This document shows positions 48,495-53,430 of a stretch of 64,000 nucleotides of DNA, in pieces. The DNA is from Candidatus Pacearchaeota archaeon (GTDB lineage: Archaea > Nanobdellota > Nanobdellia > UBA10117 > JAFCGA01): positions 1 to 64,000 of the forward strand of contig JAFCGA010000007.1 of assembly GCA_017608345.1 (NCBI GenBank). Direction: 5' to 3'. The notes under the pieces are model-generated. The model did not search any database. It saw nothing but the letters and a program-made list of their open reading frames with translations, and was not told the DNA's origin. Position numbers and translations under genes: made by a program. Positions within the stretch are counted from its first letter, which is position 1; each line of letters opens with the position of its first letter.

Positions 48495-48534
48495 ATTAGC
48501 AAACCCTTAAATGTTTTTACCTAATGAGTACAGC

Positions 48535-49152
48535 ATGGTACTTCTATCTGATTCTCACTTGCTAAGGATGATTAAGAATCATCAGCTAGTTATTGAGCCA
48601 TTTGACGAAAGCATGGTTCATTCAGCATACATCGAGCTCAGATTGGGAAACAAGTTCACAGCGCTATTACCTGAAAGCAAGGGCTATCTCGATCCATCTG
48701 CCCGGCATACTCCATTAAAACAAAAAGATATGCTTCAAAATGAACCGCCAATCACTTCAAAGCAAAAATATAATGTTATGAAAGTCTCTGAAGACGGCAA
48801 ATTCCTAATTGATCCGCATGAGTTCATCCTCGGTACAACAAAAGAGAAAATCATGATGCCCGAAGGCTATATTGGCGTACTGAACGGCAAATCATCTCTC
48901 GGAAGACTAGGAGTTCAAGTATTCTGCTCGGGCAAATACGTCGACCCAAAATTCAAAGGACATTTAATTCTCGAAATATTTAATGCCAACCGCGTACCTG
49001 TAGCTCTGCATCCCGGAATGATTGTAGCTAAGCTAGCTATATTACCTCTCAGCAAGACCCCAGTAAAAGAAAAAGTCCATGATGATATATTTGATAAAGA
49101 AGACATGGGAAAACTCACTAAATGGGTCTCGGATAAGATTGCAGAAGGCTAG
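48535..49152 (+). CDS. dcd: dCTP deaminase
   Basis: YIELRLGNKF, FILGTTKEKIMMPEGYIGVLNGKSSLGRLGV, GHLILEIFNANRVPVALHPGMIVAKLAILPLS. Confidence 0.92.
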   Translation: MVLLSDSHLLRMIKNHQLVIEPFDESMVHSAYIELRLGNKFTALLPESKGYLDPSARHTPLKQKDMLQNEPPITSKQKYNVMKVSEDGKFLIDPHEFILGTTKEKIMMPEGYIGVLNGKSSLGRLGVQVFCSGKYVDPKFKGHLILEIFNANRVPVALHPGMIVAKLAILPLSKTPVKEKVHDDIFDKEDMGKLTKWVSDKIAEG

Positions 49153-49653: not shown

Positions 49654-50916
49654 ATGATAAAAAGATTCAATTCGGATGGCAGTCTATACCGTAATGTCCA
49701 GTATAAACCCGATCAATTAATCAGCTATCAAAACCTTGAAACAATACTGGAAGTCTTAGAAGACACAGCTCGATCTGGAATGCCAATACCTCAGCCAGAC
49801 GGAGTGCGCAAAATATGTAGTTTATATGGGGACGAAGTAACATATCTCGGACAGAAAGGCGGACAGAGGGCTGATTTCTATAGAATAACTGAAACTGATG
49901 ATGGACGACCACGACTTCTGAAGATTGATAGGCGTATTGGCGGTCGAGAATCTGCTAAAAATGCTGAATCATTCAGAGCAGCAAATAAATTGGGGGCAAT
50001 TGGCTATACTTTCGGAGCAGACTGGATCGAAGGAATTACTCTCGAAGAAGCAAAAAGACTACAGACTACCTTCGAAACTAACGCACTACCACAATACAGG
50101 AATTTATTTGAATTAGATTTCTATGTTTTATTATATAATGGAACTTTCACAGCAGATAAATATTTGAGAGGTACAGACAATACAGTTCTCAAGAATAACG
50201 CCATAGAAATCGGAAAGTTCCTGGGCGAAATTTATTCAATAGAGCAAGACGTTGAGCCAGGACAAATTAAAGCACAATTAGAATTTCTACTAGATCTCTG
50301 CCAAGCATACATTAACGGCCCAGAGTTCTCAGATTTAAGAAGATCAGAATTAGAAATAGAAGTCGCAGATTTCAGAACTAAGGTCGGTGAACTTAAAATA
50401 ACCGATAGAAATGGTAATCCATTAAAAAAAGCTGCATTCACTCCATTAGATTTAAGATTAATACATATCGCTGGTCTACAAGAGGAAGGGCTAGAAATTT
50501 CTCATGACTTCTTAGGAATATATGACGAAGGAGTAAATACGATTAAACAAAGAACCTTATGGCCGGGTTGTATAAAAAAATATAATTTACCTTATGATGC
50601 TACACCCTTTCAAGGAATCGTTGAATCTAGTGTAGGCAAATTACATCAAAATATAGTTGTATCTCTAGAAGATATTGATCGTTCTGCGGCGAATATACTA
50701 ACGCAAGACCTTGAGGATTTCGGAGCAACTAATCAAATGGGAGACTATGTTAGAAAAATAGCTCCGAATAAAACGCTTTCAAAGTTCGGATTTGTAATTG
50801 GAAAATTATATAACAAAATATTGCAAGAAAGAGAAGCAAAGAGCAGAGTAACCGAACGTGAATCTGATACCAACCGAACACTCGCAGAAGTCAGGGCCTT
50901 AAGCCCACTCAGTTAA
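49654..50916 (+). CDS. Hypothetical protein
   Basis: 420 aa ORF; GGAGG upstream at 49628. Confidence 0.7.
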   Translation: MIKRFNSDGSLYRNVQYKPDQLISYQNLETILEVLEDTARSGMPIPQPDGVRKICSLYGDEVTYLGQKGGQRADFYRITETDDGRPRLLKIDRRIGGRESAKNAESFRAANKLGAIGYTFGADWIEGITLEEAKRLQTTFETNALPQYRNLFELDFYVLLYNGTFTADKYLRGTDNTVLKNNAIEIGKFLGEIYSIEQDVEPGQIKAQLEFLLDLCQAYINGPEFSDLRRSELEIEVADFRTKVGELKITDRNGNPLKKAAFTPLDLRLIHIAGLQEEGLEISHDFLGIYDEGVNTIKQRTLWPGCIKKYNLPYDATPFQGIVESSVGKLHQNIVVSLEDIDRSAANILTQDLEDFGATNQMGDYVRKIAPNKTLSKFGFVIGKLYNKILQEREAKSRVTERESDTNRTLAEVRALSPLS

Positions 50917-52744
50917 CAAATACATAGGGAAGTTTATTATCAAACATATGCTTCAAATCGAATTTATCTTTAGAAACAATATTTATATGCCCACCACGTA
51001 AATATTGATACAGTTCTGGAAAAATACTATCTTTCTCATGAATACCGCCAGAATAACTGACCTCCTTAGAGTAGTTTAGTGTATCGATATACTCAAACCG
51101 CTTAATTATTTCAGGATCATGTTGTTCCCCAAGCGCAATACGAATATTCCCCCCATGTTTCTGAATTACCTCATTTGAGAATTTTAGGGTTTTATCCGCA
51201 AGAGACAGGTTGTTCTTGATGCTTCCGTTATTTAGGAAAAATATCGCTTCGCTAAGACCAAAGAAACGTATCGAATATAATCCGTCTTCAACCGGCAAAT
51301 AATTCCACTTCTCTCGTTGTACGGACCGAAATATAATCTTAGTTCTACGGTAAGTATCTCCAGCAATCAATTCAGTCATTACTCCAAAAGCATGGATACA
51401 AGATTTCAGGATACTCTCTAATCTAATAAAAAAATCTTTCTCATTCTTGCTATCTAGCGCAATCCTCGGCAAGTTCACAGTTATCCTTTGTACTTCTCCA
51501 GTGCGTATAACTCTAAACCAACTATTCCAATTACTATCAAACCTAGTCAGTCCAACGTAACTACTCGTTATTTGCTGCCAGGGAAGCGTCATGTTCGCGA
51601 AATAAAGCGGATAGTCCTTATTCGAAATAGTTCCATTTACTTTCTTAGAATCCCATACTTTTATTATACAATTGATATTCTCTAATTTTTTATCTCTCCG
51701 AAACTTCAATATTTGTTGCAATATTTTCTCAGCAACCGGAATGAAATGTTCGTATGTTTTTTCTGGTTTAAGCGTACGAACATAATAAGTTGTGGGTACT
51801 ATCTTAAGGAAATTCGGTTGACCTAGATCTAATCCAAAATACGCAGAAATATTTAATTTATCTAATGCTACTAAGAACTTCTCGAGAACCGCATTGAGTT
51901 CTTCATCTTTCATTCGGGAAGCTAAGGGTGCAATAAAATAATTAAATGAATCAAAACAATGCACGGGATTAGTAATATCTTTCATCGTTTCAAGAATATT
52001 TAACAATTGATTGAATAGATCAGATAGATTACTTGGTGCTTTATTATCTATACCATGAATAGAAATCCCGCGAATATCATGAATAAAATTAAGTAACTTG
52101 GGTTCGCTCAGGTTCTGAATAAAAATATTCCCCTGCATATGCATTTTCAATGCCTCCGGATGGAGCAGCTGTAATATATCTGAATAAGTTCTATCTTTTG
52201 GCTTTAGCTGAGCTAAGGATTGAATCGCATTATTCAAAGAATTAATTTTATCCTCTAAAAATTTCTTAAATATTGCCTCGAGCTCGAGAGAAGTTATCCC
52301 ATCATATACTCTTTTTTTAACTAGTTCCGCACCTTGTTCGATTGTAGCTAGGGGAAGACCGTGAGGAAGATATCTATTCATAAGTTTATTAACATCAAAG
52401 AATTTCATCTTTCCAGTTCTAGTCAATACGCGAATGTCACCATTGGCGGATTCAGGTGTTTTGTCCCCTTCAACTAACTTCTTAGGAGAAATCTCAATAT
52501 TAAAATCATTAACATAAAACAACCGCTTAAGTCTATTCTTAAGAACAGTGTTAGACTTTAGGAGTCCAGCCTTCTCGAGCTGTTCTAAATATTTATGTGT
52601 AGTAGAAAAATTAATTTTAAGTTCCTTAGAAATATCTGTAATAGACAGAGCTCCTCGCTTAGTCAAGAGCACTATAATACTTAGCTTGACTTCATTATCT
52701 AACGCTCGAATTCTACTTGCCAGTTGTTTGAACTCATTCTTCAT
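50909..52744 (-). CDS. Winged-helix + ATP-cone + NrdD-like (glycyl-radical domain absent) protein
   Basis: N-term wHTH (SIIVLLTKRGALSITDISKELKINFSTTHKYLEQLEKAGLL); ATP-cone (VLTRTGKMKFFDVNKLMNRYLPHGLPLATIEQGAELVKKRVYDGIT); NrdD-like HPEALKMHMQGNIFIQNL, RTGEVQRITVNLPRIALDS, SEAIFFLNNG, YLRGGHINIV; ends before Zn/glycyl-radical region. Confidence 0.7.
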   Translation of the reverse strand: MKNEFKQLASRIRALDNEVKLSIIVLLTKRGALSITDISKELKINFSTTHKYLEQLEKAGLLKSNTVLKNRLKRLFYVNDFNIEISPKKLVEGDKTPESANGDIRVLTRTGKMKFFDVNKLMNRYLPHGLPLATIEQGAELVKKRVYDGITSLELEAIFKKFLEDKINSLNNAIQSLAQLKPKDRTYSDILQLLHPEALKMHMQGNIFIQNLSEPKLLNFIHDIRGISIHGIDNKAPSNLSDLFNQLLNILETMKDITNPVHCFDSFNYFIAPLASRMKDEELNAVLEKFLVALDKLNISAYFGLDLGQPNFLKIVPTTYYVRTLKPEKTYEHFIPVAEKILQQILKFRRDKKLENINCIIKVWDSKKVNGTISNKDYPLYFANMTLPWQQITSSYVGLTRFDSNWNSWFRVIRTGEVQRITVNLPRIALDSKNEKDFFIRLESILKSCIHAFGVMTELIAGDTYRRTKIIFRSVQREKWNYLPVEDGLYSIRFFGLSEAIFFLNNGSIKNNLSLADKTLKFSNEVIQKHGGNIRIALGEQHDPEIIKRFEYIDTLNYSKEVSYSGGIHEKDSIFPELYQYLRGGHINIVSKDKFDLKHMFDNKLPYVFVN

Positions 52745-52793
52745 ATTATATTCTATGATAGTAACCTTTATAATTCTTATTATAACTCATGTA

Positions 52794-52820
52794 TTGCGGT
52801 ATTTTATATTGCAATATCTA
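52794..52820 (-). promoter_or_regulatory. TATA-like element flanked by inverted repeat ATTGC...GCAAT, candidate operator of the NrdD-like gene
   Basis: Reverse strand reads ATATTGCAATATAAAATACCGCAATAC. Confidence 0.4.
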
Positions 52821-52896
52821 ATTTTTAAGCTATTATATTCTGGAATATATAGTTTACTAGACAAAACATTTTAAATGGTTGTCAAAGTTGAAGATT

Positions 52897-53430
52897 ATGC
52901 GAACTGGTATCCGTGCGATTGACATTATGACTTCTAAGGTTATTTCTGCTCATCCGGACATGGCTTTAATCGAAGCAGGCAAGCTAATGAACAAATACCG
53001 AATCGGCGGACTTCCAGTAGTTAAGAATGACAAGCTTGTTGGAATAATAACTGAGCGCAATATTATGCGAAGTGTAATTGCTCGCGATAAAAAGCCGGGG
53101 AAAGTTAAAATTAAAGACATAATGATTAAGAAGTCGAAGTTAATAACTGGGGATAAATTCGACGATATTGACTTAGTGGCTAAGAAAATGACTAAGCATG
53201 ACATCACTCGAATTCCTGTTCTCGACAACGGCAGATTGGTTGGAATCATAACTAATCGAGATGTCATCAAACACTCTAATGAATATCTATCAGTTCTTCT
53301 AGAGCAAGCTAGAATAAAAGGTCCAGCTGACTCGCGTATGCCGCTTGCGCATGGTAAGTGTGATCGATGCGGAGCAAAGGGGCATTTGATTGCGAAAGAA
53401 AACGAGCTTTTGTGCGAGTTCTGCCTGTAA
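52897..53430 (+). CDS. CBS-domain pair + C-terminal zinc ribbon protein
   Basis: DIMTSKVISAHPDMALIEAGKLMNKYRIGGLPVVKNDKLVGIITERNIM; DIMIKKSKLI..; CDRCGAKGHLIAKENELLCEFC. Confidence 0.9.
   Translation: MRTGIRAIDIMTSKVISAHPDMALIEAGKLMNKYRIGGLPVVKNDKLVGIITERNIMRSVIARDKKPGKVKIKDIMIKKSKLITGDKFDDIDLVAKKMTKHDITRIPVLDNGRLVGIITNRDVIKHSNEYLSVLLEQARIKGPADSRMPLAHGKCDRCGAKGHLIAKENELLCEFCL

Follow-up and report, generated by a model that had tools for sequence, protein, structure and literature searches.

The question raised by this locus is what purpose may be served by a protein that joins a DNA-binding domain to the barrel of a class III ribonucleotide reductase (RNR) but lacks the radical domain of the enzyme. 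The gene, here called P0001, is located at positions 50909..52744 (minus strand) of the window, i.e., the entire stretch of 64,000 nucleotides that was analysed (from genome G000). It starts with ATG and encodes 611 amino acids, which comprise a winged helix-turn-helix (wHTH), a cone-like segment, and an NrdD-derived barrel without glycyl-radical domain (open reading frame, Pfam, Foldseek, hhalign). An initial annotation had described a wHTH and an NrdD-like barrel ending at a GGH strand; this architecture is borne out by the reading frame, Pfam, profile–profile comparison, and an AlphaFold model searched with Foldseek, and all four peptides quoted at the time occur in the translation.

The winged helix (residues about 10-80; 52505..52717, minus strand) is of the ArsR/MarR type, recognized by Pfam in 10/10 family members and by Foldseek through its similarity to CzrA, ArsR, and MarR. 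In P0001, residues 17-63 match HTH_24 (28.1 bits) and HTH_5/ArsR (PF01022; 27.1 bits versus a cut-off of 22), both above the Pfam thresholds, which identifies the N terminus as an ArsR/SmtB-type winged helix. The recognition-helix region NFST.HKYLE (residues 45-54) is invariant in all family members. The metal-binding cysteine motif of ArsR/SmtB proteins is absent, because none of the three cysteines of P0001 precedes residue 263, and a profile search with TIGR00244 (NrdR) gave no match at all.

The barrel (residues 190-600; 50945..52177, minus strand) matches Pfam family NRDD (PF13597) over residues 190-529 with 49.4 bits (cut-off 26.2; E 3.8e-13), but its score of 53 bits against the NCBIfam NrdD equivalog is far below the cut-off of 326 bits. 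Profile–profile alignment of the P0001 family with 21 NrdD-type sequences (hhalign) yielded a probability of 100% and an E value of 2.2e-47. The comparison of an AlphaFold model with NrdD, which the initial annotation had proposed, gave the same picture: the first 27 PDB matches of the model (11-row alignment; pLDDT 69.9, pTM 0.58) are all class III RNRs (best E 3.7e-17), with ArsR-type regulators next in the list. Pfam, Foldseek, and profile–profile comparison all identify the alpha/beta barrel fold of NrdD, and the homology of the two barrels is certain. The wHTH and the barrel are kept in one chain in all full-length members, as in a one-component regulator, with the barrel as the putative effector domain.

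As an enzyme, the barrel is dead. Residues were mapped via L093, a member of the closest NrdD subtype, onto P. copri NrdD (without the s-site Glu290, whose mapping is unsure), and the functions of NrdD residues and loops were taken from PMC11226230. The position of the active-site Cys171 is occupied by F220 (52085..52087, minus strand), an invariant phenylalanine in the family, and that of the thiyl-radical Cys416 by L399 (51548..51550, minus strand), which is never a cysteine. The chain ends 25 residues past the GGH of the RGGH strand (residues 583-586; 50987..50998, minus strand), with neither a glycyl-radical domain nor zinc cysteines beyond; no family member has a CxxC or an RVxGY motif, and counterparts of Gly711 and the zinc cysteines are missing. 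The zinc site, the glycyl-radical loop, and the two active-site cysteines are thus missing from every full-length copy, so that the protein cannot be an RNR, exactly as the initial annotation had concluded from the absence of the CxxC site and the RVxGY loop.

The losses extend to the elements that contact nucleotides. The triphosphate-binding HxHD motif is replaced by FIQN (residues 208-211; 52112..52123, minus strand), which reads F-I-x-N across the family; F208 and N211 do not vary. Nothing in P0001 corresponds to the NxN flap, loop 2 (RGGQ) has been deleted, and another sequence stands in place of the TPAE triphosphate loop. P0001 has thus lost the contacts through which NrdD is known to hold nucleotides, and a nucleotide ligand would be possible only via a rebuilt site.

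The segment between the two domains (residues 103-190; 52175..52438, minus strand) had been interpreted as an ATP-cone, which is the least secure part of the initial annotation. The AlphaFold model shows the expected order of secondary structures (strand-strand-helix-helix-helix), and profile scores against the cones of NrdD and NrdR, in the same register, were equalled by only 0-4 of 100 column shuffles. However, this profile similarity is marginal, the Pfam ATP-cone model matched none of ten family members, and the basic KR(D)G-type motif is missing from the segment. A Foldseek search with the N-terminal 203 residues returned wHTH proteins only and has no bearing on the cone. We regard the segment as a possible degenerate ATP-cone.

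Conservation of the fusion in other archaea, another point raised initially, is evident from 11 further genomes, all from the same DPANN archaeal order as G000. Nine of them encode full-length or near full-length copies (frames of about 570-640 amino acids, 33-41% identity); the copy of G015 is split over two contigs, and that of G014 consists of the start only, at a contig edge and facing its CBS gene. The named loci are from DPANN metagenome-assembled genomes labelled Pacearchaeota, Woesearchaeota, or Nanoarchaeota. Searches of 378 genomes from the class and 371 from the phylum revealed no further member, and all other matches were NrdD-type proteins; a scan of viral contigs, limited by the two peptide patterns employed, found no relative. 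The family forms a single clade (support 100/100), and the C-terminal end is alike in all members but one (L044). A truncation artefact with orthologs that keep the glycyl-radical domain, which had been considered initially, is not what we found: no full-length ortholog possesses the domain. The gene is under purifying selection, with a dN/dS of 0.076 between L043 and L045 (about 0.08 for the barrel alone; approximate values, since dS is high), and is thus neither pseudogene nor truncation.

The locus is also conserved. P0001 is located beside DUF63 and divergent from a gene encoding a CBS-domain and Zn-ribbon protein (52879..53430, plus strand; locus comparison), an arrangement preserved in the window and at 9 of the 10 named loci. 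Of the 18 genomes of the order, 17 have the CBS gene, whether or not P0001 is present, and the same gene block without P0001 in family f4 and in G004 represents clean empty sites. The initial annotation had also pointed to a nearby dcd gene, which indeed lies at 48511-49152 of the window but is not adjacent to the orthologs of P0001; the linkage was therefore dropped. On the other side, a 420-aa gene without Pfam family (49654-50916) is convergent with P0001 and overlaps it by 8 bases; its place is taken by different genes in relatives.

The intergenic region between P0001 and the CBS gene (52745..52878) contains TATCACAAA/TTTGTGATA sites in several relatives (motif search), whereas the window itself has no exact motif and only the near match TATCATA. 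Six of the 11 promoters of the P0001 family contain TATCACAA, the core of TATCACAAA, versus 0.09 expected under a first-order model, an enrichment that is inflated because these promoters are related by descent and not independent. Five of seven tested genomes have a single occurrence of the pattern TATCACAAAGN{0,14}TTTAAA, each time in the P0001/CBS intergenic region, and the reversed control gave zero matches; in G002, its orientation is flipped relative to the P0001 gene. The motif is absent from the promoters of L038 and L042 and may represent a promoter element instead of an operator. Its position suggests that part of the family may be autoregulated. An operator common to P0001 and RNR promoters was rejected, because the TATCACAAA motif was not found in the RNR promoters of eight loci; the distribution of the motif lends no support to RNR control.

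The RNR complement of these genomes differs widely. The real RNR of G000 is an NrdD (L035:5969-8458, on C1) whose score exceeds the equivalog cut-off and whose N terminus is a full NrdR (TIGR00244, 159 bits); next in order come a separate gene for the glycyl-radical domain and NrdG. A free-standing gene for the missing domain, of the kind contemplated initially, does exist in the genome but adjoins the real NrdD and not P0001. P0001 co-occurs with class III RNR alone in G000, G001, and G009 and with class II RNR alone in G005, G006, G007, G012, and G015, which encode no glycyl-radical domain. No RNR was detected in G002 and G010 (86-88% complete), and there is at most a fragment in G016 (all incomplete genomes). 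The presence of P0001 thus does not track RNR class. NrdR was not detected in eight P0001-bearing genomes (G002, G005, G006, G007, G010, G012, G015, and G016), which would be compatible with an NrdR-like role without showing it; in family f4, four genomes with class II RNR encode neither NrdR nor P0001. According to PMC9110341, NrdR is found alongside all RNR classes.

Class III RNRs of this lineage show several other peculiarities. The glycyl-radical domain (about 49-102 amino acids) forms a separate small gene (L035:5727-5972 in G000) in 13 genomes (G000, G004, G014, G019, G145, G304, G027, G037, G024, G047, G054, G365, and G363), where it usually overlaps or directly trails the large subunit; the zinc cysteines are divided between both chains. 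Differing junctions in the 13 genomes and a distance of about 1.2 kb in one of them show that this is no sequencing error. GrcA is a replaceable radical subunit for pyruvate formate-lyase, and by analogy, such replaceability may be one possible reason for the split; our literature search found no paper on a split glycyl-radical subunit of class III RNR. A complete NrdR (Zn ribbon and ATP-cone) is fused to the N terminus of active NrdDs in G000 (C1), G009, G014, G145, G033, G027, and others, so that these enzymes may be able to bind DNA or to control their own genes. Long NrdD frames at L105, L111, L112, L113, L114, L115, and L116 (about 1030-1150 amino acids where complete) have, by visual inspection, a thioredoxin/glutaredoxin-like extension past the glycyl-radical domain, and a thioredoxin-reductase-like gene that is apparently interrupted by an intein (L036:2999-5104; G001, C19) adjoins NrdD.

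A DNA-binding domain has been joined to a dead NrdD also a second time. In G328 (C67; L139:2369-4696, sequence L096), an NrdR Zn ribbon and ATP-cones precede an NrdD barrel in which the radical domain and the two active-site cysteines are missing; the genome has a class II RNR. The sister of this protein is the active NrdR–NrdD fusion of G145, and a common clade with the P0001 family was rejected (AU p 0.007). The case of G328, encountered in one genome only, is independent of P0001.

The reading of P0001 as a transcription regulator derived from a dead enzyme is well supported by the sequence evidence, and the protein is most likely a gene switch built from an enzyme. Specifically, we assign a probability of about 0.6 to a one-component regulator that evolved from the large subunit of class III RNR, with a remodelled effector barrel and probably autoregulatory. 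The N-terminal winged helix would bind TATCACA-type half-sites in the promoter region shared by P0001 and the CBS gene, and the barrel, devoid of both catalytic cysteines, zinc site, and radical domain, would act as a dimerizing effector module. The former active-site cavity may have been remodelled for a different small molecule, whose binding would reposition the two winged helices on the DNA. The strongly conserved residues of the barrel are for the most part shared by descent with the closest NrdD subtype (L093, L094) and are therefore, taken alone, no indication of a new ligand.

The initial annotation had favoured an NrdR-like sensor, whose cone and barrel would read (d)ATP/ATP or the dNTP pool, repress the RNR genes, and replace NrdR in the order. 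The eight genomes without NrdR and the occurrence of NrdR with all RNR classes agree with such a role, and the fusion of NrdR to active NrdDs of the same archaeal class, and once to a dead one, shows that a link between regulator and NrdD exists. However, the elements that bind nucleotides in NrdD are replaced or deleted, the cone lacks KR(D)G, the motif does not occur in RNR promoters, the f4 genomes manage with neither NrdR nor P0001, and P0001 persists with either RNR class and even in G002 and G010, where no RNR was detected; we consider dNTP sensing unlikely, and this part of the initial interpretation is not supported. Control of the CBS gene as the main target, which would explain the conserved divergent pair and the position of the motif between the two genes, is less likely still: the CBS gene persists without P0001 in the f4 genomes and in G004 and is therefore not dependent on it, and autoregulation from the same site is already covered by the one-component regulator.

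We regard it as very unlikely that P0001 is a scaffold or chromatin-like protein with the barrel as a ligand-free dimerization body. All NrdD elements that contact nucleotides are gone and the conserved residues may be structural, but the entire barrel is under strong constraint (dN/dS), and the conserved GDIFIxNL, NFxHD, RFD..W, and GGH segments line the cavity in NrdD. An active RNR that receives its glycyl-radical domain in trans, for which the free-standing gene of G000 would be a source, is hardly conceivable when no member has either of the active-site cysteines and the five genomes with class II RNR alone keep P0001 without any such domain; the class-II-only genomes also make a pseudo-subunit that partners the NrdD of the cell unlikely. 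Loss of the catalytic domain would fit a decaying pseudogene or a truncated assembly of NrdD, which we practically discount in view of frames that have stayed open in ten independent genomes (33-41% identity), a shared C-terminal end in all but L044, and the low dN/dS.

RNR barrels are known as enzymes. Among open-licence PMC papers, to which the literature search was limited, we found no case of an RNR barrel that acts as non-catalytic effector of a DNA-binding protein. If confirmed, the one-component regulator would show a route from an essential enzyme to a regulator and provide a tractable candidate with which to study gene regulation in DPANN archaea, whose transcription control is little known. 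The NrdR–NrdD fusions and the split glycyl-radical subunits suggest repeated rebuilding of class III RNR in this lineage. The broadest interpretation, that an RNR barrel became the ligand sensor of a factor replacing NrdR in dNTP-pool control in a DPANN order, and that DNA-binding domains combined with dead NrdDs arose independently on at least two occasions within the class, is a rather doubtful one.

Compared to known systems, P0001 is closest to the NrdD subtype of L093 and L094, with which it shares the whole alpha/beta barrel up to the GGH strand, including the segments WQ..N..Y.G..R.D and R.G....I..NLPRIA. It differs by the added wHTH and by the absence of the thiyl cysteine, Cys171, HxHD, the NxN flap, loop 2, the zinc site, and the glycyl-radical domain. 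Like NrdR, the bacterial repressor of RNR genes (TIGR00244), it has a DNA-binding head followed by a cone-like domain, and both consist in part of RNR-related modules; by contrast, P0001 has a wHTH instead of a Zn ribbon with two CxxC motifs, a possibly degenerate cone, and an additional NrdD-derived barrel of 400 residues, and RNR genes are not evidenced as its targets. The winged helix resembles that of one-component regulators of the ArsR/SmtB and MarR types in Pfam assignment and fold but lacks the metal-site cysteines of ArsR/SmtB, and the effector part is an enzyme-derived barrel. The NrdR–NrdD fusions of the same archaeal class (G000 C1, G009, G014, G145, and others) likewise combine a DNA-binding domain and NrdD in one chain. 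Unlike P0001, they are active enzymes with a Zn ribbon and true ATP-cones, with the exception of the dead fusion in G328 (L096), which represents a parallel case.
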